Shown piece by piece: positions 46,308 through 62,442 of a stretch of 64,000 bases of DNA. A program made the translations under genes and the position numbers. The DNA is taken from NCBI GenBank assembly GCA_903916735.1, contig CAIWXX010000055.1, forward strand, positions 62,001-126,000. Direction: 5' to 3'. Every line of letters begins with the position of its first letter. Position 1 is the first letter of the stretch. Under the pieces are notes generated by a model. The model searched no databases. It was not told where the DNA came from and saw only the letters and a list, made by a program, of their open reading frames with translations. This DNA comes from an uncultured Acidobacteriota bacterium. Lineage in GTDB: Bacteria > Acidobacteriota > CAIWXX01.

Positions 46308-47657
46308 TCACTCCAGAGCGATAACAATCTTTTGGAAGAGGAACTTATCGGGATTCAGTATTTCAATTGTCGCTTCCTGACCATCTGCACTGATTGTGAT
46401 TTTGTAGTCAATTTTCTCCTTGAAAATCGACGGCAGAATGACGGCTTTCTTGATCTTTTTCATTCCGAAGTTCGCTGCCTGCATGACGATGGAAGTCTGA
46501 CTCCTCAGATCGATCTTCCCCGTAAAATCTTCACTCTTGAAGTTTTCAAGACGCACTTTGCCGAGGAATGGATCCTTGATGATGCCTGATTTTTCGAGAT
46601 CATCCTTTAACCCGGCACGGAAGTAGAGCGAGTTGACATCAGATTCAAGATTCGCCTGAACGCCCTTCAATTCCTCGACATTGGTTGCCAGGCTTTCTTT
46701 TTCCTGCGTCAGGCCGGTGATCTGTTCATTGAGTTGTGTTTTCTGTCCTTCCAGATCTGTGACTTGAGTCTTCAGGTTATCTCTCTCGGCAAATGCAGTA
46801 TTCCGCTCATCCACAATTGTTTGGATTTTTTCGCGTTCTGCTTCATTGGGGCTGATGGGTGCTGTGCCCTGAGTGATGTAAGTTCCGAATGCTCCATTGA
46901 TGTAGAAATTCCAAACTTTGAATCCGGGCAGGAGAGGATCGAGCAAGTTGATACGATCCACTAGATCCTCGGCTTGTTTCCTCGAAAGCTTCTGAACTTC
47001 GGTGAGAAAGTGGATGGCGATGTCTCGATGGCGTTCACCTGCCTTGACGACATGTGGTCGAGGCAGTTGCTCTTCCAGTGAGGAGAGCCGGGCCTTGGTG
47101 TCCCAGATCTCCTTGTCCTTGGACAGGATTTCGCGGAGCAAGTCCTGGTACCCGGATTTTTCATTCTTCATGAGATCCGCTAAGAGTTTCCGCTCATCTT
47201 CGGTGAGCGCGATGCCTCCGACTTTGAGCGTTCCGCCTCGAGCCTGATACTCAGCCTGGAGCCGGGCCATTTCCTGGCCTCTCTGCTGCATGTCCTGCTC
47301 CAACTTGTCGATGTTATTTGCCATCTCCTGCATATTTTCGAACTTGGCATTTGTCTCTGCATTCGCACCAACTTGGGAAACGCCGGGGAAGGCGCCTTTC
47401 TTGCCCAGTTGCCAGTTGAATGCAAAATGGCCGACGAGAACGACGATGATCGCGAGCAACGCAATGCCGGCAATGATGAAGAGAATTTTGCTGCCGGAGC
47501 GCGACGGAGCCGGTTCCGATATTTTGGGAGGCTCGGGGTCCGGCTTCCGGACAGGTCCGGTTTGGTCATCAGCTTTTTTCTCTACCCGAGTTCCGCAATA
47601 GGGGCACACTGCCGCCGATTCAGGTACGTCCTTACTACATTTCTGGCACGTCATCAT
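46308..47657 (-). CDS. Zinc-ribbon, membrane-anchored coiled-coil protein
   Basis: 449 residues, no known family. Residues 3-21 form a zinc ribbon (CQKCSKDVPESAAVCPYCG), then a Pro/Lys-rich linker, one membrane helix (about 55-80, ILFIIAGIALLAIIVVLVG), long coiled coils (about 95-190 and 280-345), and a middle LysM-like stretch (HVVKAGERHRDIAIHFLTEV). The C-terminal 90 residues look beta-rich. Probably a cytoplasmic ribbon with an outside coiled-coil body, perhaps envelope-binding. AGGAGG stands close to the start. A single gene, 226 bases from ispE. Confidence 0.7.
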   Translation of the reverse strand: MMTCQKCSKDVPESAAVCPYCGTRVEKKADDQTGPVRKPDPEPPKISEPAPSRSGSKILFIIAGIALLAIIVVLVGHFAFNWQLGKKGAFPGVSQVGANAETNAKFENMQEMANNIDKLEQDMQQRGQEMARLQAEYQARGGTLKVGGIALTEDERKLLADLMKNEKSGYQDLLREILSKDKEIWDTKARLSSLEEQLPRPHVVKAGERHRDIAIHFLTEVQKLSRKQAEDLVDRINLLDPLLPGFKVWNFYINGAFGTYITQGTAPISPNEAEREKIQTIVDERNTAFAERDNLKTQVTDLEGQKTQLNEQITGLTQEKESLATNVEELKGVQANLESDVNSLYFRAGLKDDLEKSGIIKDPFLGKVRLENFKSEDFTGKIDLRSQTSIVMQAANFGMKKIKKAVILPSIFKEKIDYKITISADGQEATIEILNPDKFLFQKIVIALE

Positions 47658-47883: not shown

Positions 47884-48807
47884 CTAATTCTCCGATGAGG
47901 GCGTTGTTTTCTGAGGATTTAGTCTCAATGCCACGGCCCGGGAAATCAGCCTGCTCATGATCGTAGTATGCCCCAAGCGCGCTATTTCGCGCGAGGCTTT
48001 TGCCAAAAGTTGCGAATTTCCGAAAATGCCGTAGATGCAACTCCCACTGCCTGTCATCTGCGCGTGGAGAGCGCCTGAATCATATAATGCTGCTTTAATG
48101 ATCGATAGCTGGGGATGATGAGCGAATACCTCCGGCTCAAGATCATTTCTCATTGACGCCCAAGAGCCCTTTTTGTAGGAAGCCTCTATTGCACGCGCAT
48201 AGTGCGAAGCCGTTTGGACGGGAGACGATGTTGTCCCTGCCCAACTACGCGCGTACCAGCCATATGCATCAACCGTCGAGACATGGAGGTGTGGAGTCAC
48301 AAGCAGTATCGGCACCCGGCGATTGGCATGAAGGGCTTTCACAATGGCTCCTCTTCCGAACGCAGCACACAACCCGCCGTGGAGAAAGAAAGGGACATCG
48401 CTCCCAATCGTCGAAGCAATTTCGGCGAGAGCGTTGTCTGAGAAGCGTAAACGCAGAAGCTTATTCAAGCCTCGTAGCACGGCGGCGCTGTCACTGCTGC
48501 CGCCTCCCAATCCGGCGCCCAATGGGATTCTCTTTCGCAAAGTGAGGGTGACGCCGGTGTGAGCTGCCGCCGTTCTGGAGAGAAGCGCCTCGGCCGCACG
48601 ATAGGCGAGGTTCTCTGAGTCGGCCGGCACTTTTTGCAATCCCAGACACCTGAGTCGAATCCCGGGCGTCCGGGAAAGCCCTATTTCCAGACCGTCCCCA
48701 AGATCGATGGTTTGCATAAGGCTCTGGATCTCGTGATATCCGTCGTGGCGCTTCCCGATGATTCGCAGATCCAGATTGACCTTGGCGTAGGCGTGGAGAT
48801 GAATCAT
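47884..48807 (-). CDS. ispE: 4-diphosphocytidyl-2-C-methyl-D-erythritol kinase
   Basis: 307-residue GHMP kinase of the MEP isoprenoid pathway; phosphorylates CDP-methylerythritol. Signatures: AYAKVNLDLRIIGKRHDGYHEIQSLM (abridged: AKVNLDL near residue 7 and DGYHE near 22), the ATP loop PLGAGLGGGSSDSAAVL (about 95-110), and GSDVPFF. The frame is open further upstream but ATG 48807 overlaps the stop of the LolB-like gene, the genuine start (coupled). A housekeeping gene at the end of an otherwise unusual operon. Confidence 0.93.
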   Translation of the reverse strand: MIHLHAYAKVNLDLRIIGKRHDGYHEIQSLMQTIDLGDGLEIGLSRTPGIRLRCLGLQKVPADSENLAYRAAEALLSRTAAAHTGVTLTLRKRIPLGAGLGGGSSDSAAVLRGLNKLLRLRFSDNALAEIASTIGSDVPFFLHGGLCAAFGRGAIVKALHANRRVPILLVTPHLHVSTVDAYGWYARSWAGTTSSPVQTASHYARAIEASYKKGSWASMRNDLEPEVFAHHPQLSIIKAALYDSGALHAQMTGSGSCIYGIFGNSQLLAKASREIARLGHTTIMSRLISRAVALRLNPQKTTPSSEN

Positions 48808-49445
48808 CGCCCGATCTTTTCGAGAAACGCCGGCCTTTCGCATGGGTCGTATCCTGCTGGAGGCTCGAAGGCGACTTCCTCGGGGTCTGAATCGAAAGTG
48901 ACCTGCCGCCATGAGAGTCGCGCATATTGAGAATGATTAATTAATTCGATGACCAGCGGAAGCCCGGTCTGCGCGTGTACCCGACTCAGAACCACCCTCA
49001 CATCACCTCGATTCAACTCATGCGCGGTTTTAACCCAATCAACCAGGCCGTTGATCTGTCCGGAGAGGAGAAAGGCCAGATCCCGACTCTTAATTTCCGT
49101 TCCCAGGAAATCATTTGTGAGCATCGCCGCAGAAGAGATGTAGATCAGGTGGTCAGGCGGGAAGGCGCACGAAGCTCTCTCGCCATTCAGAATAATCAGT
49201 GCTTCAGTGCGATTCCCTGACATGATTTCAAACCTCAGCCGGTCCGGTATCAGGATGGCTACCATGGCCTCGACCTTGCCGTGGAAGCTTCTGGACCGGA
49301 TATCGAGAATTCCCGAAAGGGAATTGGCCGGCTTATTGGGGATGTTCCGGATTTTTGGAAGCGCCGGTCCACATGAGATCAATAGGAATCCAGCGAGGCT
49401 GGTTGCCAGGATGCGGAGGCTGCTGGACACCAATCGGCCCTTCAC
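48804..49445 (-). CDS. LolB-like outer-membrane lipoprotein
   Basis: 213 residues, signal peptide with lipobox (LLISCG, Cys at about 25) and a beta-rich body with a curved-sheet pattern (GILDIRSRSFHGKVEAMVAI, DRLRFEIMSGNR) similar to LolB and related lipoproteins (DUF4292). LolB receives lipoproteins from LolA and inserts them in the outer membrane. The family call is by pattern. LolB is often next to ispE in Proteobacteria, which supports it. Overlaps ispE and the TPR gene by ATGA. Confidence 0.6.
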   Translation of the reverse strand: MKGRLVSSSLRILATSLAGFLLISCGPALPKIRNIPNKPANSLSGILDIRSRSFHGKVEAMVAILIPDRLRFEIMSGNRTEALIILNGERASCAFPPDHLIYISSAAMLTNDFLGTEIKSRDLAFLLSGQINGLVDWVKTAHELNRGDVRVVLSRVHAQTGLPLVIELINHSQYARLSWRQVTFDSDPEEVAFEPPAGYDPCERPAFLEKIGR

Positions 49446-51379
49446 TTTCTCTTCACTGCCGCCAGCTTATCTTTGATCCGCGCCGGCTCTTCCGGGCTGC
49501 TTGATAGGGCTTTTTCATAAAATACGACGGCTTCCGAGGTCAAGCCGAGAGCCGCGTAGATATCCCCGGCATGTTCCAGAATTTCCCAGTTGGGTTCTCC
49601 AAATTTCAGCGCAAGATCGATTTGCTTGCGAGCGTCTTCGAGTTTTCCCAGTTTGAGCTCTCCACATGCGAGGCTGTCAAGAAAGGCTTCGTTCTCTGGA
49701 TCGGCTGTGACCGCTCTCTGGATAAGACCTACGGCATACCCCATGTCAATGTTATGTTCGATGAGAGTGTACCCGAGGTAATTCATCATATCGGAGCTAT
49801 CTGGGAATCGCTGAATTCCTTTCTCCAATATCTCACGGGATTTTCTGAGATCTCCAAGGCGTTCGTAGCTCGCGCCGAGCAGATAAACAGCATCCTCCGG
49901 AGCCTTGGCATCCGAGTCCGCCGTCTTCAAAGTTGTGACGACTTCTTTGAAGGCCTTTTCATCGAAAAGTTTTCGCCCGAGCACGATCCGGATATCCCAT
50001 GAGTTCTTTTGAGTTGCCAGCAGAGATTTCAGTTTTGAGACTGCGTCCTTCTTGCGGCCTGCTTGCCAGAGAATGTCTGCGGGAAGCGTTTTCATCTCGA
50101 TGTCGTCAGGGAAGAGGTGATATGTCTCGTTGGCAATATCTTCCGCTTTCTTTATCTCGCCCATTTCAGCCAGCAGAAGCGCTCGATCCCGCCAGAGAGT
50201 CCGTTCCATCTCATTGTCGGCCGAAGCCTTGGCCGCTTCAATCCCTTCGGCATAGCTCTTCTGGGCTTCCGCATATCGTTTCTGGGTCTGCTGGGCGAAG
50301 CCGAGATGCAAAAGGATGGGAGCGCGTTCGGCGAGTTCGCTGCGGGTGAGAATTTTTTCGAAAAGCTTGGAGGATTCAGCAAAATTACCGATTCGTTCGT
50401 ATGCCTGCGCCAACTCCAGAAGGGAATCAATCGGTGCTTTTTCTTGGGGGGCGGAGTCTTTCAGAATTTCGATGACCTTGTATGGCCGGTTCAGACGTGC
50501 AAATATCTTGGCAGCCAGAACCTGTGCTGCGGGGTTGTAGCCTTCGGCCAGGTTCTCATAATCCATGACCTCGTGGGCTTCCGAATAAAGCCCCTGTTCG
50601 TAAAGGCTGACGGCCAGGGCCGAGCGGGTGCGAAGATCGAGTGGGTTGTCGGCCAGTATTTTCTTGTAGAGTTTGCGGAGATCATCAGTCCGGTTGAGAT
50701 GGGCGTAGAGGCCCATGAGTGATCGGTAGGCCGGGGTGAATGTCGGCGCAATTTCGACGGCTCTGACATAATCCGCCTCGGCAGCGGCATCATCCTGAAG
50801 AGCCTGATTCAGGAGGCCCATTCGATAGTAGCCCTCTGGATTTCCCGGCACCGCATCTGCATATTTTTGAAAGGCTGCAAGAGCCTTTTTGATGTTTTCG
50901 GTGTTATTAGGATCTTCTTCCAGATAGATTTGAGCGAGAAAATAGAAGACCTGCGGATTTGATGGCTGTGCAGCAGCCTTTTCAATTGCCTCTCTGGCTT
51001 TTGTCAGATTCGCGTGATCCTGATCCTTCAGATTGTAATAGTAGGTACCAAGGAGTTCATTGGCATCAGTATTTTCCGGATCGGCCTTGAGGATGATGTC
51101 CAGTTCATTTTTCATGACATCCAGATGGTCTTGCTGCATGTAGACGCGGGCTCGAGCGATTCGAATGTCCGTGCTGGACGGGTCATTATCGAGGGCTGCG
51201 GTATATTCCTTCAGAGCGGTGTCGGCATCTCTTTCGGCCTCAGCCATGGAGCCGAGGAGATAATGGTAATAAGACTGGCTTCTGGAATCATGGACCGCAT
51301 GAGATTCTTTAGGTAGCGAGACAGCCCAGAATGGCAATCCGACAAAAAGGAGGGTGGTGATGGATGTTGATGATATCAA
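49442..51379 (-). CDS. Secreted TPR-repeat protein
   Basis: About 645 residues. A signal-like N-terminus (up to SHA about residue 28) is followed by 12 or more TPR repeats (e.g. EKGIQRFPDSSDMMNYLGYT, LKFGEPNWEILEHAGDIYAA). TPRs form binding surfaces for other proteins. The start is read as TTG 51379, overlapping the TGA of the AAA gene with GAGGTG 8 bases ahead; an ATG-type start further up would lie inside the AAA gene. Predicted periplasmic or outer-membrane-associated partner within the operon. Confidence 0.75.
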   Translation of the reverse strand: MISSTSITTLLFVGLPFWAVSLPKESHAVHDSRSQSYYHYLLGSMAEAERDADTALKEYTAALDNDPSSTDIRIARARVYMQQDHLDVMKNELDIILKADPENTDANELLGTYYYNLKDQDHANLTKAREAIEKAAAQPSNPQVFYFLAQIYLEEDPNNTENIKKALAAFQKYADAVPGNPEGYYRMGLLNQALQDDAAAEADYVRAVEIAPTFTPAYRSLMGLYAHLNRTDDLRKLYKKILADNPLDLRTRSALAVSLYEQGLYSEAHEVMDYENLAEGYNPAAQVLAAKIFARLNRPYKVIEILKDSAPQEKAPIDSLLELAQAYERIGNFAESSKLFEKILTRSELAERAPILLHLGFAQQTQKRYAEAQKSYAEGIEAAKASADNEMERTLWRDRALLLAEMGEIKKAEDIANETYHLFPDDIEMKTLPADILWQAGRKKDAVSKLKSLLATQKNSWDIRIVLGRKLFDEKAFKEVVTTLKTADSDAKAPEDAVYLLGASYERLGDLRKSREILEKGIQRFPDSSDMMNYLGYTLIEHNIDMGYAVGLIQRAVTADPENEAFLDSLACGELKLGKLEDARKQIDLALKFGEPNWEILEHAGDIYAALGLTSEAVVFYEKALSSSPEEPARIKDKLAAVKRK

Positions 51380-53034
51380 TGGCGAGCACCTCGCTGCTGG
51401 ATCTCGGCTCGTATCTGGTCGGCGTTTGGCGGCAATAGACGCCTCGATCGACATTCATCGAGCGCCAGAAGGGTCATCTGATCGATGGCCGCCACATCAC
51501 GTGCCGAAGGAATGAAATCATCCAGCGCCTTCATCCAATCAGCTTCTCGAATGACAGGTGAGTTGTCTCGCGATGAAAACCGGAATGCCGTGGTTGCCAG
51601 GAGCTCGAGGTCGGCTCCGGTGAAACCATCGGTTCGCGTGGCGATGGTCGTGAAGTCGGTAAGTTCTGTCTTGAAACCGTGCTTCTTCATTAGAACGTTC
51701 AGTATTTGCCGGCGTGCTGTCTGGTCGGGCATGAGAATCGGAATTTTGATATCCGTCCGGCCGGAACGACGCATCGCCGGATCGATGAGATCCACGCGAT
51801 TGGTGATGTCGATCCGCAGGACCTTTCCCCGTAGCGATTGATCTCCCCAGAATTGAAACGCCTGGCCGCGCATTCGTTCGCTGACTCCCGAGTCTCCTGA
51901 TGGGCCGCTTCCACGCGCCTGCTCCTCTTGATCGCTCTCATCAACAACTACGACGACCGGCGCCAGAGAACGAATGGCGTTGAAGGCGCGTTCCTGATTG
52001 CGTTCCGACGCGCCGACATACATCTGCCGCAGTGGCTTGAACTTCACGCACAGCAAGCCGCATTCTTTCGCGAAACACTCGGCCAGATAGCTTTTTCCAG
52101 TGCCCGGAGGACCCATGAGCATAATCCCCATTGGAGCGGCTGATATGACCTGCTGGCGCATCAATTCGGCCACCTCGCGCAATTCCTGGATTGCGTATTC
52201 CAGCCCACCAACCGCGTCCAATCCATAATGGGATTCGATGATTTCGAGAATGTCGCCATATTCCTTGGCGAGCATTTCGATTTTTTTGGAAACGATGGCT
52301 GAGGGTTCATTGAAGTCGCGTTCGCGAAGCAGAATGTCTTCGATCTGGCGCAACGTCATGCCTTGAGATTTTTCCGCGATAAGCATGATGGAGACCGGAT
52401 CGACGGGACGTTGCTTCTGTTCAATGAATCGTCGGAGGAATGCCTCCCGCGATAGGCTGTCGGGGCGTGGTATCTGAACGGCATGAATTCCGCTTTGCGA
52501 TGCGCGAAGAGGTTCCGCGACATCAGCCAGGTTTTCGGCCAGAAGCACGATAACGGCTTTCTCAGCCACAATCGGATCATCCGCCCATCGGACAAGTGAT
52601 GTAATAATGGATCGTTCTTCCTGGGATTGATAGGCACTCCCGCCAGCTGGCGCAATCGTCTCAACATAAGGAAAAACGGCAAAGACGCTCCGACGAGGGG
52701 TCTTTTGATTAAGAATGATACGTTCCAACAAAGCCAGGGCTGCGTGCGGTTGAGCCGGCAGCGGAGTCCGGTTATCTAGCGAGGCCGCTCGTCGAAACGC
52801 CATTTCACGTTCTCGTGATTGGAACCGGAATCCAGTGGACAGGCTAAAGCTGAAAACGATGGGCCGCTGAGCTCCCAGCGCCATGATGGCCTCTTCGAGC
52901 GGTTGAAACTCATTTCCGATCGGAATGTAATCTTTGATATTGCCGGTCAGCAGGAACACGTGCGATGCATGAGAGTTGTAGATGTCGAGGAAATTTTCTT
53001 CCATCCATTTTGGAACGATTGAGAGGGCGTTCAT
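51376..53034 (-). CDS. AAA+ ATPase with a degenerate N-terminal AAA half
   Basis: 552 residues. The first half (1-255) looks like an AAA domain without Walker motifs. The second half has Walker A GPPGTGKS (Lys314), Walker B VVVVDESD (Glu366; Ser in place of the usual Ile/Val), sensor TNR, and arginine finger RRSGRTD. The overall plan resembles Ycf46/CDC48-like proteins. ATP-driven remodelling of a protein partner is expected; the pseudokinase-propeller and TPR proteins are candidates. Overlaps its neighbours by ATGA and TTGA. Confidence 0.8.
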   Translation of the reverse strand: MNALSIVPKWMEENFLDIYNSHASHVFLLTGNIKDYIPIGNEFQPLEEAIMALGAQRPIVFSFSLSTGFRFQSREREMAFRRAASLDNRTPLPAQPHAALALLERIILNQKTPRRSVFAVFPYVETIAPAGGSAYQSQEERSIITSLVRWADDPIVAEKAVIVLLAENLADVAEPLRASQSGIHAVQIPRPDSLSREAFLRRFIEQKQRPVDPVSIMLIAEKSQGMTLRQIEDILLRERDFNEPSAIVSKKIEMLAKEYGDILEIIESHYGLDAVGGLEYAIQELREVAELMRQQVISAAPMGIMLMGPPGTGKSYLAECFAKECGLLCVKFKPLRQMYVGASERNQERAFNAIRSLAPVVVVVDESDQEEQARGSGPSGDSGVSERMRGQAFQFWGDQSLRGKVLRIDITNRVDLIDPAMRRSGRTDIKIPILMPDQTARRQILNVLMKKHGFKTELTDFTTIATRTDGFTGADLELLATTAFRFSSRDNSPVIREADWMKALDDFIPSARDVAAIDQMTLLALDECRSRRLLPPNADQIRAEIQQRGARH

Positions 53035-54494
53035 GTGAGGATCAAGGCTGAGAAACCGCCTTCATGTCCTAGGAAAACGGTCGTGTCGGTGATGATGGGG
53101 CTGGACTTAATTGTCTTTCCGACATCGATGGACGCCATACATGCGCCTGTCGCGCCGTCCAGGAGGAAAATCGCACCATTAGTGGACGCGCCGAGTACAT
53201 TGCTGCCGATGAGAACAGGAGACGAAACAACAGAACTACCCGACGAGTACTTCCATTGGATGTCGCCTGTCTTTCTGTCGAACCCATAAACCGAACCATC
53301 ATGTGAACCACAAGCGATGGTTTTTTCTCCGCAGGCGGCTGAGGAGAAGTATGGTTTGCCAGTTGATTTTTTCCACCGGACCGCACCATCCGCAGAGAGG
53401 CAGTAGAAACACCCATCGAAGGAGCCGACAAAAATATCGCCTGATACAGCCGGTGTCGCTCGCACCTTGGCTTCTGTTTGAAAGGCCCAGATTTTTTTGC
53501 CGGTCGAGATATCCACCGAATGGATAGACCCATCATCGCTGCCGACGATGATGGATTTTCCGCAAAGAGCAGGGGAGGAAAACACTTCTCCACACCGGTA
53601 GGTCCAGATGGTTTTTTTCTTTTGAATATCGATGCACTGGAGAGTCCCCTGATCGGGAGCATCGACGGTTCCTATGAAGAGAAGGCCTTCTTGGGTGAGC
53701 GGCGACGATCGGATCATCCCCCCGATTTTGTGTTTCCACTGGATCTTCCCCATCTGCGCGTCTATGCAATAGAGGCAACCATCATCCGCGCCCAGGCAGG
53801 CGATCTCCTTTGTCAAGGCGGCTGTCGATTCCGATGGCACTCCGATCTCGATTTCCATCGCCGTCGTTCCGTTTGTGCCGTCGACGACCATCAATTTTCC
53901 ACTGGCAGAGACAACGAGAAGAAATCCGGCATTGAGAAGGATCGGAGAGGCGAGGATTTCCGGGTATTGCCGGTACCAAAAAATATTCATCTTCGATGCC
54001 GGAGATGGAGGACCCGCGATCACTCCGGTGCGCCCTTGATCTCCCCGGAAGCAGGGCCACGGGCCGTCGTATGGAGATCGTGACAGTGTCACGCGTTCCA
54101 GAAGCTGGAGTGTTGCTGGACGGCCGATCACCCTCTCGGATCGAATGGGATCCGTCAGCCGATCGATCAGATGAGTAAAGAACCACGGAAGTGTCACATT
54201 CGAAGGCAGGCCATCCAATAGGAAAGACGGTTCGAACTTAATGCCTGTCGCCAGAGCGAAGAGCAAAATGCCCAGGAGATAATAGAATTCCGGCTCCGAC
54301 TTTGGCAGCGCACTCTCGGCGAATGTGAGCGTGCCGGTGGAATCGAGCCGCATCCTTTCAATGTCTTCACCATGGGGGTCAGGTTGATTGAGGATCTGCT
54401 TGGCGATTTCCAGGACTGCATCAATCGGCAAGGTCTTGCCGCTCCGAACGAGATCAAGCAATGTATAGCCGGCGTAGGATGCTAATATTTCCAT
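53031..54494 (-). CDS. Pseudokinase C-lobe fused to a PQQ-type beta-propeller
   Basis: 487 residues from ATG 54494. Residues 1-145 match the C-lobe of Hanks-type Ser/Thr kinases without the catalytic parts: hinge MEILASYAGYTLLDLVRSG, helix E AVLEIAKQIL, a catalytic loop HGEDIERMRLD where HRDxKxxN is expected, AES where DFG is expected, and helix F FYYLLGILLFALATG. The N-lobe is missing. Residues 170-487 are six to eight PQQ/BamB-like blades (e.g. IIVGSDDGSIHSVDISTG). No signal peptide is seen, so it is likely cytoplasmic. No ribosome site; see the promoter entry. Confidence 0.7.
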   Translation of the reverse strand: MEILASYAGYTLLDLVRSGKTLPIDAVLEIAKQILNQPDPHGEDIERMRLDSTGTLTFAESALPKSEPEFYYLLGILLFALATGIKFEPSFLLDGLPSNVTLPWFFTHLIDRLTDPIRSERVIGRPATLQLLERVTLSRSPYDGPWPCFRGDQGRTGVIAGPPSPASKMNIFWYRQYPEILASPILLNAGFLLVVSASGKLMVVDGTNGTTAMEIEIGVPSESTAALTKEIACLGADDGCLYCIDAQMGKIQWKHKIGGMIRSSPLTQEGLLFIGTVDAPDQGTLQCIDIQKKKTIWTYRCGEVFSSPALCGKSIIVGSDDGSIHSVDISTGKKIWAFQTEAKVRATPAVSGDIFVGSFDGCFYCLSADGAVRWKKSTGKPYFSSAACGEKTIACGSHDGSVYGFDRKTGDIQWKYSSGSSVVSSPVLIGSNVLGASTNGAIFLLDGATGACMASIDVGKTIKSSPIITDTTVFLGHEGGFSALILT

Positions 54495-54501
54495 CGATCG
54501 A

Positions 54502-54530
54502 AACCTAACATAGGAGGAAACCACCGTCAA
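54502..54530 (-). promoter_or_regulatory. Operon promoter that appears leaderless
   Basis: Minus-strand TTGACG (54530-54525), a 17-base spacer and TAGGTT (54507-54502). The predicted start falls on 54495-54494, the A of the pseudokinase ATG. No Shine-Dalgarno precedes that ATG, so a leaderless message is the simplest reading. Drives the five-gene operon down to ispE. Confidence 0.55.
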
Positions 54531-54648: not shown

Positions 54649-54676
54649 TTGATACCGAAGTTTGATCTGGTAGAAT
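54649..54676 (+). promoter_or_regulatory. Promoter of the cus metal-efflux operon
   Basis: TTGATA (54649-54654), a 16-base spacer and TAGAAT (54671-54676). Start near 54683, about 29 bases before the tolC-like ATG. No MerR- or CusR-type dyad was recognised around it. Confidence 0.5.
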
Positions 54677-54711
54677 TTGGTTTAAGAGGATTCGCCGGAT
54701 TTGAAGGTGGG

Positions 54712-56004
54712 ATGAAGGCTATCATCAGTTTTCAATGGCCCAAAGTCATTATCGCTATCATATGCTGCCTGACTCCACTTGTTGCTCGATCTGATGAAGC
54801 CGTCACTCTTGATTCTGTCATCAATGAAGCCCTCACTCACAACTCCAGGCTCCAGGCTTCCCTCAAACGATATGAAGCTGCTTCGTTGAGGCCATCTCAG
54901 GCACGGGCGTTGCCTGACCCAACGATCGGGATCATGTCGACAAGCATGACAAATCCCATTCCTCTCTATTTCGCTGATCCCATCGCGAATGTTGCTGTTT
55001 CTTTCTCTCAGGAAATTCCGTTTCCAGGCAAGCGAGCACTGGCCGCTAATGTCGCCATGCTCGAAGCCGAAAGCGCGCGCGAAGAGCATGAAGCCTTGAA
55101 ACTCGACATCATCTCCCAGGTAAAGGAATCGTATTTCGATCTCGTATATTTTGATCGAACACTCGGTCTTCTGAAAGAGAGCCGGCACTTGCTGGAAGAA
55201 CTTTCGGGAATCGCGCAGGCTAATTATGAAGTCGGCCTGGCATCCCAACAGGATGTGCTGAGGGCTCAGACTGAAATCTCTTTGCTCATCGCTCGCCAGA
55301 TTTCGCTCGAACAACGTCGCAGCGCCGCTGTTGCTCGCATGAACGAGCTTTTGCATCGGGCAGCGGGAACGCCTTTTGGTTCACCGTTGGATAGCCATTT
55401 GCCGGAACTCCGCTTCAGTTCACAGGAACTTCGCAACAAAGCTCACGACATGTCACCGTCCCTGAAGGCACGCGAACGCGACATTGCCTCCGCTTCCAGC
55501 CGGCTTCAGCTCGCTCAACGGCAGTTGAAACCCGATTTCATGGTCGGAGCTTCCTATGGCTATTCGCGAGAATATCGGGATATGTGGCAGCTCAAATTTG
55601 ATCTGCGCCTGCCGCTGTATCGGCGAGAAAAGCAAATTCCGGGAATCGATGAAGCGGCGCATGAACTTGAAGGCGCACGCGGGGAATATGATGCCGCACA
55701 ACAACAAATTGATTCGGCTATTGAAGAACAATATTCAATGGCATCCGCATCCCGACGACTCATTTCGCTGTATGACACAGGACTCATCCCGCAGGCACGG
55801 TCGACCTTTGATGCATCCATGGCCAGTTATAAAGTGGGTCGAGTGGATTTCCTTACGATGATGACCAATTTTGTGGGTGTGTTGGAGTATCGGATGAATT
55901 ATTTTGAAGAGGTCACGACGTACCAGAAAGCGCTCGCACAACTTGAAAAGTTGAGCCTGACACCTCTGCTTGCGGATGGCACGGACAAGCCGGGGAGGCA
56001 ATAA
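54712..56004 (+). CDS. cusC: CusC-like outer-membrane factor (TolC family)
   Basis: 430 residues with a signal peptide (1-23) and two long alpha-helical hairpin regions typical of TolC proteins ([54 protein letters not shown]). Forms the outer-membrane exit duct of the RND pump. The frame is open further upstream, but AAGGTGGG precedes ATG 54712. Ends one base into the start of cusB. Confidence 0.88.
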
Positions 56005-57548
56005 TGGCGGTATCGCAGAAATCCAAATGGGTGATTCTGATCGTGGCCGCGGTGGCCATCCTCGCCCTCGCAGCCGGCTGCGCCAGACACACCTCCACAA
56101 ACATGAAGTACCAATGCCCAATGCACCCAACATACATCTCCGACAAGCCAGGTGATTGCCCGATATGCGGGATGCAGCTGGTTCCGGTTGGAATCAAGGA
56201 AGAGCCGTCGCCAAAGGCCGCCTTCGTTTGTCCGATGCATCCGGAAGTGACATCGGACAAGCCGGGGAAATGTCCGAAATGCGGAATGACGCTTGTTCCG
56301 ATCAAAGCAGGCGCTCCCGCCCCGGCTCTCGAAACCCCCAGCGTGATTGGAGAAAAGCGAATTCTTTATTACCGGAATCCCATGGATCCGAGCGTGACGT
56401 CATCGGTTCCAGCCAAAGATTCAATGGGCATGGATTTTGTGCCGGTCTATGCAGATGAATCGGCGCCCGGGGGTGGTGGAATCGCCGGCATGGCCGATGT
56501 TTCCATTGGCGCCATAGGAATCCAGTTGGCTGGTGTGCAAACGGCCCCGGCAAAATTTCAGCGTCTGCAGCGCGTGGTCCGCACGGTCGGGGTTGTGAAG
56601 CCTGATGAAACCCTCATCCGGCATGTTCACACAAAGGTGATGGGTTGGATCGAGAAGCTTTTCGCAAATTACACCGGGCAGATGGTCACACGAGGAGAAC
56701 CGATCCTGACAATCTACTCGCCGGAGCTCGTCGCGAGCCAGGAGGAATTCCTGCGAGCGCGTCAGGAAGTCAGTGAGGTGAGGACCTCCGATATTCCCGA
56801 AATTCGACAGGGGAGTGAGGATATAGTGAAAGCGGCTCGACACCGGCTCGAGCTTTTTGATGTGCCGCAGGATCTCATCGATCAGCTCGAAAAAGGCGGC
56901 GGCGTACAACGCACAGTGACACTCCGAAGCAGCGCCTCAGGCTATGTGACGGCCAAAGATGTCTACGAAGGCAAGCAGATTGATCCAAGCATGGAGCTGT
57001 TCACCATTACCGATCTGTCGCGGATCTGGATCGATACGGATTTCTACGAATTTGAAGCCCGCATGATTCACATCGGCCAGCAAGCTTCATTGACTCTGCC
57101 ATATGACCCTTCTCTGAAGCTGGCTGGTCGTGTTTCTTACATCATGCCGTATCTCAATGCTGAGAGTCGGACTCTGGGGGTGCGATTCGAGTTTCCGAAT
57201 CGAGATCTCAAACTGAAGCCGTCGATGTATGTGGATGTGGAGTTGGCGATTGATGGCGGCGAAGGAGTCGTCATCCCCGACTCTGCCATTCTAGATACAG
57301 GCGAGAGGCAGGTGGTTTTCGTACAGACGGGAGAAGGACGCTTTATGCCGCGAGAAGTGACAACGGGGATACGCAGCAACGGTATGGCCATGATACTCGC
57401 GGGTGTACACGCCGATGAGCATGTCGTCATCCGGGCGAATTTCCTGTTGGATTCGGAAAGCCGCCTTCGTGCCGCTCTTGCCGGCATAAACACTGAGGCA
57501 CCGCCGACACAAAAAAGCACTCAGCCTAATGATCAAGCGAATCATTGA
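56004..57548 (+). CDS. cusB: CusB-like membrane fusion protein with heavy-metal-binding repeats
   Basis: 514 residues. Lipobox-like Cys at about 26 (LALAAGC). Three consecutive HMBD-type repeats: YQCPMHPT..CPICGMQLVP (about 35-62), FVCPMHPE..CPKCGMTLVP (about 74-100), and a third version YYRNPMDPS..SMGMDFVPVY (about 121-149) with no cysteines. The membrane-fusion domains follow (ILTIYSPELVASQEEFLRAR, YVTAKDVYEGKQIDP). The metal-binding repeats pass Cu(I)/Ag(I)-type ions to the pump. Overlaps cusA. Confidence 0.9.
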   Translation: MAVSQKSKWVILIVAAVAILALAAGCARHTSTNMKYQCPMHPTYISDKPGDCPICGMQLVPVGIKEEPSPKAAFVCPMHPEVTSDKPGKCPKCGMTLVPIKAGAPAPALETPSVIGEKRILYYRNPMDPSVTSSVPAKDSMGMDFVPVYADESAPGGGGIAGMADVSIGAIGIQLAGVQTAPAKFQRLQRVVRTVGVVKPDETLIRHVHTKVMGWIEKLFANYTGQMVTRGEPILTIYSPELVASQEEFLRARQEVSEVRTSDIPEIRQGSEDIVKAARHRLELFDVPQDLIDQLEKGGGVQRTVTLRSSASGYVTAKDVYEGKQIDPSMELFTITDLSRIWIDTDFYEFEARMIHIGQQASLTLPYDPSLKLAGRVSYIMPYLNAESRTLGVRFEFPNRDLKLKPSMYVDVELAIDGGEGVVIPDSAILDTGERQVVFVQTGEGRFMPREVTTGIRSNGMAMILAGVHADEHVVIRANFLLDSESRLRAALAGINTEAPPTQKSTQPNDQANH

Positions 57549-60500
57549 GTTTTCGGCTTACAATCGGGCTTTGGTGTTGCTCGGATTTGCCGTGCTGTGC
57601 ATTTTTGCATGGCACCTTCTCTCGGAAATCCGCCTGGATGCGCTTCCGGATCTTTCAGATACACAGGTCATCATTTTTTCTCGCTGGGATCGATCGCCCG
57701 ACATCATCGAAGATCAGGTAACATATCCGATCATTTCTACGCTCCTGGGCGCGCCCCAAGTGAAAGCCATCAGAGGATTTTCGGATTTCGGCTTTTCCTA
57801 TGTCTATGTCATTTTCAAGGACGGCACGGATCTGTACTGGGCCCGATCGAGAGTTCTTGAGTATCTTTCAAAAATTCAATCACGGCTTCCGGAGGGAGTA
57901 CAGACGGAACTCGGCCCTGATGCCACCGGCGTTGGCTGGGTCTTTCAATATGCGCTCGTCGATCGCTCGAACACCCTGTCATTGGATGAACTGCGGTCCT
58001 ATCAGGATTGGACACTGCGTTACGCACTGCAGTCGGTCCCGGGAGTTGCCGAAGTCGCCTCCATTGGAGGATTCGTCAAACAGTATCAGGTGACGGTTGA
58101 TCCGAATCGGCTTGCCGTCTATCAGCTATCGATTGAAACGGTTATTGCGGCGATCCGAACGTCGAATAATGAAGTTGGAGGCCGGTTGGTGGAGTGGGGC
58201 GGCCGCGAATATATGGTGCGAGGCCGAGGATATGCGAAGTCCACGAGCGACCTGGAACAGATTGTCGTGAAAGTAGGACCGGGTGGCGTGCCTGTTTTGG
58301 TTCGCGATGTAGCGCGTGTGGAGCTCGGTCCCGAAATCCGGCGTGGGGTCTCGGATCTGGATGGCAAGGGAGATACCGTCGGCGGCATCGTCGTGATGCG
58401 TCATGGGGAAAATGCGCTTAATGTCATCAAGAGTATCAAGGAGAGATTAAAGGAGCTGCAACCGTCGCTTCCCAGGGATGTTGAAATCGTCATAACCTAC
58501 GATCGGTCCGATCTCATCACCCGCGCCATAGAAACACTACGTCACGAGCTCACGATCGAAATGATCATTGTTTCGCTTGTCATCCTGATCTTTCTTTGGC
58601 ATATCCCATCGGCTATCGTTCCCATCATCACGATCCCTGTGGCGGTCCTCCTGGCGTTTATTCCAATGTATGGACTGAACGTGACTGTTAACATCATGTC
58701 TCTGGCAGGGATTGCGATTTCGATTGGCGTCCTGGTTGATGGATCGATCGTGGAGGTTGAGAACGCCTATAACCGGCTGCATCAATGGCAGGAACAGGGG
58801 AGAAGAGGCGATTTTCATCAAGTCCGATTGCAGGCGCTCAAAGAAGTTGGTCCATCGGTCTTTTTCTCTCTGCTCGTCATTGCGGTTGCCTTCCTCCCGG
58901 TTTTCACCCTTGTTGATCAGGAGGGTCGTCTATTTCGGCCTCTGGCTTATTCAAAGAATCTCGCCATGGCCATCGCCGCTCTTCTTGCCATCACACTCGA
59001 TCCCGCCATGCGGATGGCCTTCACACGCATGCACCCTTTTTCTTTCCGCCCACGATTCTTCTCATGGATAGCCACCAAAGTCGCGGTCGGAACTTATTAT
59101 GCCGAAGAGCGGCACCCAATCAGCCGGATGATTTTCCGTCTCTACGAGCCGGCGTGCCGCTTTGTCCTTCGATACCCGAAAATCATCATCGCATCTGCGA
59201 TCGTTATCATTGCCGTCAGTGTCCCTTTTTATTTCCGACTCGGCTCCGAATTCATGCCGCCCCTCAACGAAGGCACACTTCTCTACATGCCGACAACGTT
59301 GCCGGGGATTTCAGTGGCTCAGGCTCAGGAATTGCTCCAGTCACAGGACCGGGTCTTGCGATCTTTCCCTGAAGTGGAACGCGTCTTCGGGAAAGCCGGT
59401 CGCGCCGATACATCGACGGACCCAGCACCTTTTTCCATGATGGAAACCACGGTTGTTCTCAAGCCCGAAAGTGAATGGCGTGCGAAAAAACAGTGGTATT
59501 CTTCAATTTTCCCCAGCTGGTTGAAGCCCCTCGCTCGACCCATCTGGCCTGAGCATATCTCTTCGGAGGAGCTGATCGCTGAAATGAATAAGTCACTCCA
59601 GATCGTCGGAGTGACGAACGCATGGACGATGCCGATCAAGGGCCGCATCGATATGCTCACAACCGGAGTGCGGACACCGATTGGGATAAAAATCTTTGGA
59701 GCCAACCTGCAGGAGATCGAACGGATCGGCGGAGAATTGGAAAAGATCTTGCAGCGGATCCCCGGGACACGGAGCGTTTATGCAGAGCGTGTGGCCGGTG
59801 GGTTCTTTCTCGACTTCCAGCCTCGCCGTGATCAGCTTGCACGCTACGGGCTGACCATCGGAGAACTCCAGTCTGTTATTCAGAGTGCCATCGGCGGAGA
59901 AAACGTCACGACCACGATTGAAGGGCGGGAACGATATCCGGTCAACGTACGATATCCACGTGAACTGCGTGATAATGTTGATCGCCTCCAGCGTGTGCTG
60001 GTGCCGACCTCCTCTGGCGCTCAAGTCCCACTCATCCAACTCGCAGATATCGCGCTTGTTCAAGGCCCCGCAATGCTGAGAGACGAAAATGGATTTCTAG
60101 CGGGATACGTCTTCGTCGACATTGCCGGCAGGGATATCGGCGGATACGTGCGCGATGCAAAACAGGAGGTCAGCCGGGTGATGGCTCTTCCGGCAGGGTA
60201 CGTGCTGCAGTGGAGCGGTCAATATGAAAACATGCTTCGTGTGCGTGAACGTCTCAAAGTCGTCGTTCCTATCACTCTTATTCTCATTTTCGTGTTGCTC
60301 TTAGCCAATACACGATCGGCGTTCAAGGCTGCCGTCGTGATGCTCGCCGTGCCATTTTCTGCAGTTGGTGCCATATGGCTCTTCTATATTCTCAATTACA
60401 ATATTTCAATTGCCGCATGGGTCGGCATGATCGCACTTCTGGGGCTCGACGCTGAGACTGGTGTCTTCATGATGCTTTTTCTGGATCTGTCTTTTGACGA

Positions 60501-60798
60501 GGCAAAACAGAATGGCCGGTTGACGAAAATCACCGATCTGGATGAAGCCATTATCCATGGAGCGGTAAAGAGGGCTCGTCCCAAGATGATGACTGTCTGT
60601 GCAGCATTCATGGGACTGCTTCCAATCATGTGGTCGACCTCTGCGGGAGCCGATGTGATGAAACGGATCGCAGCGCCGATGATCGGTGGCCTTGTCACGT
60701 CGTTTCTGATGGAGTTGCTCGTCTACCCCGCAATCTATAAACTCTGGAAGATGTTTGGGGAACTTAAGGAAATCAATCGTACAGAGGAGGTCCAATGA
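57529..60798 (+). CDS. cusA: CusA-like RND metal efflux pump
   Basis: 1089 residues, heavy-metal RND (CzcA/CusA) transporter with 12 membrane helices (e.g. ISIGVLVDGSIVEVENAYNR, GLDAETGVFMMLFL). The three methionines of the Cu(I)/Ag(I) site of E. coli CusA have equivalents: Met587 (LLYMPTTLPG), Met637 (PFSMMET), and Met709 (RIDMLTTG). This favours Cu(I)/Ag(I) over Zn/Co/Ni. Expels the metal from periplasm or cytoplasm using the proton gradient. Overlaps cusB and the YHS gene by a few bases. Confidence 0.93.
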   Translation: MIKRIIEFSAYNRALVLLGFAVLCIFAWHLLSEIRLDALPDLSDTQVIIFSRWDRSPDIIEDQVTYPIISTLLGAPQVKAIRGFSDFGFSYVYVIFKDGTDLYWARSRVLEYLSKIQSRLPEGVQTELGPDATGVGWVFQYALVDRSNTLSLDELRSYQDWTLRYALQSVPGVAEVASIGGFVKQYQVTVDPNRLAVYQLSIETVIAAIRTSNNEVGGRLVEWGGREYMVRGRGYAKSTSDLEQIVVKVGPGGVPVLVRDVARVELGPEIRRGVSDLDGKGDTVGGIVVMRHGENALNVIKSIKERLKELQPSLPRDVEIVITYDRSDLITRAIETLRHELTIEMIIVSLVILIFLWHIPSAIVPIITIPVAVLLAFIPMYGLNVTVNIMSLAGIAISIGVLVDGSIVEVENAYNRLHQWQEQGRRGDFHQVRLQALKEVGPSVFFSLLVIAVAFLPVFTLVDQEGRLFRPLAYSKNLAMAIAALLAITLDPAMRMAFTRMHPFSFRPRFFSWIATKVAVGTYYAEERHPISRMIFRLYEPACRFVLRYPKIIIASAIVIIAVSVPFYFRLGSEFMPPLNEGTLLYMPTTLPGISVAQAQELLQSQDRVLRSFPEVERVFGKAGRADTSTDPAPFSMMETTVVLKPESEWRAKKQWYSSIFPSWLKPLARPIWPEHISSEELIAEMNKSLQIVGVTNAWTMPIKGRIDMLTTGVRTPIGIKIFGANLQEIERIGGELEKILQRIPGTRSVYAERVAGGFFLDFQPRRDQLARYGLTIGELQSVIQSAIGGENVTTTIEGRERYPVNVRYPRELRDNVDRLQRVLVPTSSGAQVPLIQLADIALVQGPAMLRDENGFLAGYVFVDIAGRDIGGYVRDAKQEVSRVMALPAGYVLQWSGQYENMLRVRERLKVVVPITLILIFVLLLANTRSAFKAAVVMLAVPFSAVGAIWLFYILNYNISIAAWVGMIALLGLDAETGVFMMLFLDLSFDEAKQNGRLTKITDLDEAIIHGAVKRARPKMMTVCAAFMGLLPIMWSTSAGADVMKRIAAPMIGGLVTSFLMELLVYPAIYKLWKMFGELKEINRTEEVQ

Positions 60799-61387: not shown

Positions 61388-62442
61388 TTCACAACCTGCA
61401 AGAGGGACTTTTCGGACTGGCGCTGCTCGCCGGCTATGGACTCCTGATGCACATGGGCCTCCGCCTCATGCGCCGTCTCGTATCTAGATCTGTTCCGAAA
61501 GCCCAGGATACCCTTGCCAGGCGATTGGTCCGAAATCTGGAAACGCCTTTTTTCCTCGCGATCATGCTTGTCGGCCTGAACATACTCCTGAGTCAAGTTC
61601 TGTTGCTGAACCGTTACTCGCCGTACCTCCAGTTGGGATCAAAACTGGCCCTAATCCTCATTCTCTCACTGGCTCTGGATAGAATCGTCCGAACCCTGAT
61701 TATCTGGTACGCTCAATCAAGCACGCCCAACGCCGATGTGATCTCGGAAGATCGCCTGATGCCTCTCGTGCGGAGGCTCGTCAGCGTTGTGATTTGGACG
61801 CTGGCGGGGTTGGCCGTTCTTCAACAGCTTGACGTCCAGATCACGCCGCTCCTGGCAAGCCTCGGTGTGGCCTCTCTCGCCGTTGCACTCGCCCTGCAGG
61901 ATACGCTTTCCAATTTTTTTGCCGGCTTGTACGTCATTGCTGATCGGCCTCTTTCAGTGGGAGATTTCATCAAGCTGGAAACAGGGCAGGAGGGGACTGT
62001 CGATCGAGTTGGCTGGCGGAGCACCAGGATCCGCACCCCTTCCAACACCATCATCACTGTCCCCAACTCCAAGCTTGCGCAAAGCGTTTTGACGAATTAT
62101 AGCCTGCCCGAGTCCGACGTTTCCATTTTCCTTCCCTGCGGCGTCGCCTATGGATCGGATCTCGATAAGGTCGAACAGGTGACATCAGAAGTTGTCCGCG
62201 ATGTTCTGACGACGGTCCATGGTGGAGTGAATACAGACAAGTCGGTCGTTTCTTACAGCGCATTCGGGGATTCGAATATACAATTCACCGTCCAGTTGAG
62301 AGTGCGGGCCTATGCTGACCGCACCCTCATCATCCACGAATTTATCAAACGGCTGATGGATCGATACGCGCGTGACGGCATCAAAATTGCTTTTCCAACG
62401 AGAAGTGTCTATCTCCGTGGCGACGGCAAGGGCATCGGCTGA
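61384..62442 (+). CDS. mscS: MscS-family mechanosensitive channel
   Basis: 352 residues. About four N-terminal membrane helices, then the pore-lining helix and middle beta domain (LASLGVASLAVALALQDTLS, IADRPLSVGDFIKLETGQEG, TPSNTIITVPNSKL), and the C-terminal alpha/beta domain. Opens under membrane tension to release solutes on osmotic downshock. Larger than E. coli MscS (286) by extra N-terminal helices. Its tail overlaps the decayed D-aminoacylase gene on the other strand. Confidence 0.9.
   Translation: MIHNLQEGLFGLALLAGYGLLMHMGLRLMRRLVSRSVPKAQDTLARRLVRNLETPFFLAIMLVGLNILLSQVLLLNRYSPYLQLGSKLALILILSLALDRIVRTLIIWYAQSSTPNADVISEDRLMPLVRRLVSVVIWTLAGLAVLQQLDVQITPLLASLGVASLAVALALQDTLSNFFAGLYVIADRPLSVGDFIKLETGQEGTVDRVGWRSTRIRTPSNTIITVPNSKLAQSVLTNYSLPESDVSIFLPCGVAYGSDLDKVEQVTSEVVRDVLTTVHGGVNTDKSVVSYSAFGDSNIQFTVQLRVRAYADRTLIIHEFIKRLMDRYARDGIKIAFPTRSVYLRGDGKGIG

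Follow-up and report, generated by a model that had tools for sequence, protein, structure and literature searches.

A kinase-lobe-like propeller protein conserved beside a double AAA+ ATPase in Acidobacteriota, and its candidate role in PspA remodelling

What do five tightly overlapping genes for a kinase-like propeller protein, an AAA+ ATPase, a TPR protein, a lipoprotein and an isoprenoid enzyme build together? The genes lie on the minus strand at 47884–54494 of the window, the whole 64,000-nucleotide stretch that we analysed (positions 62001–126000 of contig C55 of G000, an uncultured Acidobacteriota genome of 5.37 Mb). An earlier, sequence-only reading had suggested that the first three could form one machine, made in fixed ratio with lipoprotein sorting. 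We find that the operon joins a dyad (the propeller protein, here called kin, and the ATPase, here called AAA) to a triad (the TPR, LolB-like and IspE proteins), and that kin and AAA are a conserved pair, which probably acts in membrane remodelling of the PspA/ESCRT-III type.

All five frames are open, at 54494–53031 (kin), 53034–51376 (AAA), 51379–49442 (TPR), 49445–48804 (LolB-like) and 48807–47884 (ispE). Each consecutive pair shares four bases: ATGA at 53031–53034, TTGA at 51376–51379, GTGA at 49442–49445 and ATGA at 48804–48807. The overlaps had been described as ATGA or TTGA, which is right for three junctions and wrong for the one at 49442–49445. Gene order and overlaps are kept in G001 (Acidobacteria metagenome-assembled genome, MAG, JACPPM010000099.1), the one other genome of the same family in our sample, with protein identities of 47, 70, 48, 34 and 49% for kin, AAA, TPR, LolB-like and IspE. 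Conservation of the layout at 34–70% identity means that the arrangement of five overlapping genes is not due to chance.

AAA (51376–53034, minus strand) is a double AAA+ ATPase of 552 aa. Its first 240 residues (52315–53034) match p97/Cdc48 domains by profile (7.5e-9). A fold search with a structure model, built from a three-row alignment, placed spastin at 5.6e-6, with Vps4 and p97 also among the matches. This first domain has no Walker A motif, as is usual among the relatives of the protein, only 1 of 70 of which carries it there. The dead first domain of the sequence-only reading thus stands. The second domain (residues 304–432, 51739–52125; Pfam AAA, 1.3e-22) is predicted to be active from its motifs: Walker A GPPGTGKS at 52090–52113, Walker B VVVVDE, an aromatic pore loop YVG and a lid behind the pore loop. 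Of the 70 relatives, 67 have Walker A in the second domain and 59 have W or Y as the aromatic residue of the pore loop. Two PspA-adjacent members, in G384 and G317 (loci L105 and L116), have no standard Walker A by pattern search, and some members of the family may therefore be inactive. A contig scan with AAA as query gave three loci, two of which are true relatives.

To place AAA in a family, we used a sample of 396 genomes of the phylum. The AAA N-domain profile detected 69 of these, and PspA (PF04012) was found in 127. PspA is present in 63 of the 69 genomes with AAA, compared with 64 of the 327 others (odds ratio 43, p = 3e-30). When the genomes were collapsed to families, to lessen the influence of kinship, both were present in 32 families, AAA alone in 2, PspA alone in 10 and neither in 43 (p = 1.6e-12; 87 families in total, read from the family numbering). 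PspA lies within 10 kb at 44 of 70 AAA loci. Neighbour clustering also placed a protein of 280 residues, with an N-terminal membrane stretch and a coiled coil, at 44 AAA loci, mostly directly upstream of AAA; an ABC ATPase occurs at 38 loci, a permease at 31 and a substrate-binding/OmpA protein at 31.

This gene set agrees with a published system. Ravi et al. 2024 (PMC11237479) described a PspA-linked double AAA+ ATPase with an inactive N-terminal domain, compared it with Vps4, and reported it in operons with TM-Snf7, ABC and PBPB-OmpA proteins, where pspA in the same operon is occasional and not universal. The likeness extends to the dead first AAA+ copy and to the neighbours of the family, namely PspA, the transmembrane coiled-coil protein, ABC ATPase, permease and PBP-OmpA protein. 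The window AAA is homologous over its full length to the PspA-adjacent ATPases, at about 30% identity and in one tree. It very probably belongs to the family of Ravi et al., matched by domain and operon description and not by the sequences AEY64321 and OGG56892. It differs in that neither pspA nor the transporter cluster is nearby and that its partner is kin, a pairing that we did not find in the text of that paper. With AAA fitting the published family, the earlier statement that no described system has this set fails in part. The transmembrane coiled-coil protein was also considered as a PspA/ESCRT-III homologue; hhalign and a PDB profile search gave no support for this, so we equate it with TM-Snf7 by operon position only.

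The partner, kin (53031–54494, minus strand), is a protein of 487 aa, predicted to be cytoplasmic, in which no signal peptide and no apparent transmembrane segment were seen. The propeller at residues 182–476 (53067–53951) is clear: Pfam Beta-prop_ACSF4 (PF13570) matches at 5.9e-56 and PQQ_2 at 2.6e-30, and the PDB matches are designed and natural PQQ propellers and BamB. The N-domain (residues 1–165, 54000–54494) had no relevant Pfam match, and fold and profile tests were run for this reason. A profile of seven kin N-domains ranked PknB kinases first in the PDB, at an E-value of only 0.08. Profile-profile alignment by hhalign to four intact kinases from related genomes reached 96.8% (E = 2.8e-10); the two run collinearly for 142 columns, apart from a deletion of the activation segment. 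An AlphaFold model (pLDDT 78, from a three-row alignment) matched kinases in Foldseek, the best being B-Raf (9.7e-4, prob 1.00), and the KIND domain of Spir-1 (2yle) was also among the matches. The agreement of the three tests supports a fold like that of a kinase C-lobe, as predicted by profile and model.

This domain has no N-lobe, activation segment, catalytic Lys, HRD-K-N or DFG, and HRDxKPxN is replaced, for example by RHPDLEPEA. With the N-lobe and catalytic residues absent, it qualifies as a pseudokinase or KIND-like domain, and the original description of kin as a dead kinase C-lobe on a PQQ/BamB-like propeller was borne out. In AfsK-type kinases (NF053615), too, a PQQ-type propeller follows a kinase fold. 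They differ from kin, which has no N-lobe, catalytic residues or apparent transmembrane segment, and which scores 79.6 bits against a family cut-off of 1300, in the propeller only. The KIND domain (kinase non-catalytic C-lobe domain) resembles the N-domain in being a C-lobe alone; however, Spir-1 is a eukaryotic actin regulator, the resemblance is at fold level only, and ordinary kinases score higher.

With a profile of seven members, kin was found in 6 of the 396 genomes at 701–752 bits, each time directly upstream of the AAA gene. The next-best matches reached 238 bits and covered the propeller only, and no kin without AAA was found in the sample. Of the 129 genomes in the class of G065, five carry kin. 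The locus of a Vicinamibacteria MAG (L023) also has kin upstream of AAA, and in 7 of 7 cases examined, from three or more families, the two genes are adjacent. The genome of L023 and G403 are apparently the same assembly, as their pspA coordinates are identical, and were not counted twice. The window kin shares 25–47% identity with the other members, and the flanking genes differ between families. A midpoint-rooted tree of 70 AAA proteins, with some long branches, groups the seven linked to kin in a single clade with 100/100 support, nested in a family that is otherwise mostly PspA-adjacent. These data support kin and AAA as a conserved pair. At all seven loci the coiled-coil gene is absent and kin stands in its slot upstream of AAA. 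In two genomes of family f38 (loci L084 and L085), a gene with FHA-like sequence lies convergent beside the pair, downstream of AAA; that of L085 also has a cyclic-nucleotide-binding part. An FHA-like sequence next to a predicted pseudokinase is suggestive.

We then asked where PspA is encoded in these genomes. In six of the seven, pspA is found elsewhere. G025, G065, G340, G220 and the L023 genome have one PspA subtype (57–60% identical to the copy in G025); in G000 an N-terminal part of this subtype can be read, at 60% identity, beside a masked stretch. A profile of the subtype detected 5 of the 396 genomes, all of them kin-positive (chance p = 8e-11, ignoring kinship). Among genomes of family f38 that are at least 90% complete, four have kin and the PspA subtype, one (G411) has kin only and at least three have neither. 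Such counts fit a linkage of kin and the subtype but are too small for proof, and relatedness may account for part of the presence–absence pattern. The masked stretch in G000 (contig C120, about position 143999, locus L037) is a run of N of at least 8 kb, probably about 72 kb by open-frame length.

The coiled-coil cluster is likewise found away from the pair. On contig C178 of G000, the coiled-coil protein stands with an ABC ATPase, a permease, a substrate-binding protein and a substrate-binding-OmpA protein; Pfam confirmed all of these but the coiled-coil protein, for which it has no family. For C52 of G065, Pfam confirmed the PBP-OmpA protein, and the remainder was read from the open frames. 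G001, G340, G220, G403 and G411 also encode the coiled-coil protein, which in G000 and G001 takes a distant form (E = 1e-22). A full replacement of the coiled-coil protein by kin was rejected, as most kin genomes encode it or its distant form elsewhere. In family f31 (G050, G062, G095, G122 and G164), a second lineage has pspA far from AAA and has no kin; in G050 and G164 the coiled-coil gene is far from AAA as well.

ESCRT-III polymers of eukaryotes and archaea need Vps4 for their turnover. We consider it probable that the first two genes encode a remodelling pair of this type, in which a Vps4-like unfoldase acts on PspA polymers and kin is its adaptor or sensor. AAA would be a Vps4/Cdc48-like ring ATPase and an ATP-driven remodeller. 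Its dead first domain would probably form an assembly or docking layer, and its second domain would hydrolyse ATP and pull substrate through a pore lined by the aromatic loop. A PspA polymer, encoded elsewhere in the genome, would probably be the substrate. As a soluble protein with two binding domains and no catalytic residues, kin might recruit or gate the ring; from its position and architecture, we rate the chance of an adaptor role as about even. In most relatives the ATPase is made beside the membrane-anchored coiled-coil protein, and in the kin clade kin takes that place. More tentatively, the dead kinase lobe and propeller would replace the coiled-coil protein as gene-level partner in an ESCRT-III/Vps4-like machine, and a signal-reading adaptor would control disassembly of a co-evolving PspA subtype; we find this extended form possible, at somewhat below even chances.

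The resemblance to ESCRT-III/Vps4, and to archaeal CdvB/CdvC, is that an AAA+ ring ATPase with an aromatic pore loop co-occurs with a polymer of the ESCRT-III superfamily, PspA. In contrast to Vps4, which has a single AAA domain, AAA has two, the first dead, and no MIT domain was identified, the N-terminus being a degenerate AAA domain. The partner is PspA and not Snf7, and disassembly is an activity that we infer for AAA.

Several observations count against a PspA remodelling pair. No PspA is near any of the seven kin-AAA loci, and the pair never adjoins it. In G000 only the first 92 or so codons of pspA can be read, as the record is masked beyond them. No PspA was detected in G001, a 100% complete MAG of 350 contigs that has the whole operon. 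G411 has kin without the PspA subtype, and G417 and G422 (78% and 63% complete) have the subtype without kin. No coiled-coil protein was detectable in G025. The literature that we searched showed no experiment on this AAA family.

The main rival, which we regard as unlikely, is a Cdc48/p97-like segregase that serves protein quality control, in the membrane or the cytoplasm, without PspA; in this reading kin would be a substrate adaptor like the WD40-type adaptors of p97. Cdc48/p97 proteins are the nearest solved relatives and the best sequence match of both AAA domains and have the same double-ring layout, and the distance of the kin clade from pspA and the G001 result would fit such a role. 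However, across the phylum the AAA family as a whole is closely associated with PspA, and the PspA subtype tracks the kin-AAA pair. AAA differs from Cdc48/p97 in having no Cdc48 N-domain, no Walker A in its first domain and a bacterial origin.

The PspA remodelling pair was also compared with the original proposal, one five-gene cytoplasm-to-envelope scaffold or quality-control machine that includes the TPR protein and lipoprotein sorting. The TPR protein (49442–51379, minus strand), encoded by the first gene of the second module, has many TPRs by Pfam and an N-terminal signal-like stretch, and is predicted to be exported. The second gene (48804–49445, minus strand) encodes a putative lipoprotein, called LolB-like from its size, its lipobox (LLISC) and its position beside ispE; no Pfam, NCBIfam or PDB-sequence match was found, the PDB search giving noise. 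IspE (47884–48807, minus strand), 4-diphosphocytidyl-2-C-methyl-D-erythritol kinase, is clear (TIGR00154, 6.4e-61).

The overlapping genes and their order, kept in two genomes of one family, speak for a single machine. However, kin-AAA has no TPR, LolB-like or IspE neighbours in G025, G065, G220, G340 and the Vicinamibacteria MAG (L023), and on contigs other than those of kin-AAA, G065, G220 and the L023 genome have a TPR homologue with a LolB-like gene and ispE behind it. TPR-LolB-IspE is an independent triad, an ordinary envelope and isoprenoid operon. As dyad and triad are found apart in other families, the five-gene operon consists of joined modules, and the joining is confined to one family and two genomes (G000 and G001), in which alone the triad would share a transcript with the dyad. 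A transcript shared with IspE is a sign of joined operons and not of a complex. A five-gene machine is therefore very unlikely. From the proposed set, the kin-AAA pair survives and the TPR protein drops out; the supposed link with lipoprotein sorting gives way to PspA/ESCRT-III membrane remodelling, to which the AAA family points.

It is also highly improbable that mere inheritance keeps kin and AAA side by side, with no shared function. The pair is known from only about eight genomes, and its bearers in family f38 are mutually related, which would suit this explanation; it is opposed by retention of the pair at the divergence given above, with differing flanks, and by the absence of kin without AAA in the 396 genomes. 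An anti-phage defence pair related to IetAS is barely credible, since the PADLOC IetA models that match the second AAA domain (3e-19) do so in the generic AAA core only, as for p97 and FtsH, with no full-length IetA match and no IetS protease partner, and the gene is single-copy and kept in long-diverged families.

For the recycling of bacterial PspA, the locus names a concrete candidate ATPase, of a family whose co-occurrence with PspA across one phylum is shown here by counts. It also adds kin as a partner, a protein tied to no such system in the literature that we found. Moreover, kin, AAA and the 211-residue PspA subtype are small, expressible proteins.

Two neighbouring regions were also noted. 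Downstream of ispE, 46308–47657 (minus strand) encodes a zinc-ribbon, single-transmembrane, coiled-coil protein, found at the same place in G001 with 58% identity; the gene may be part of the same transcription unit as ispE. On the other side, a divergent three-gene cluster at 54649–60798 (plus strand) appears to code for a CusCBA-like heavy-metal efflux system, made up of an outer membrane factor resembling TolC, a membrane fusion protein that carries metal-binding motifs, and a large pump of the RND type.

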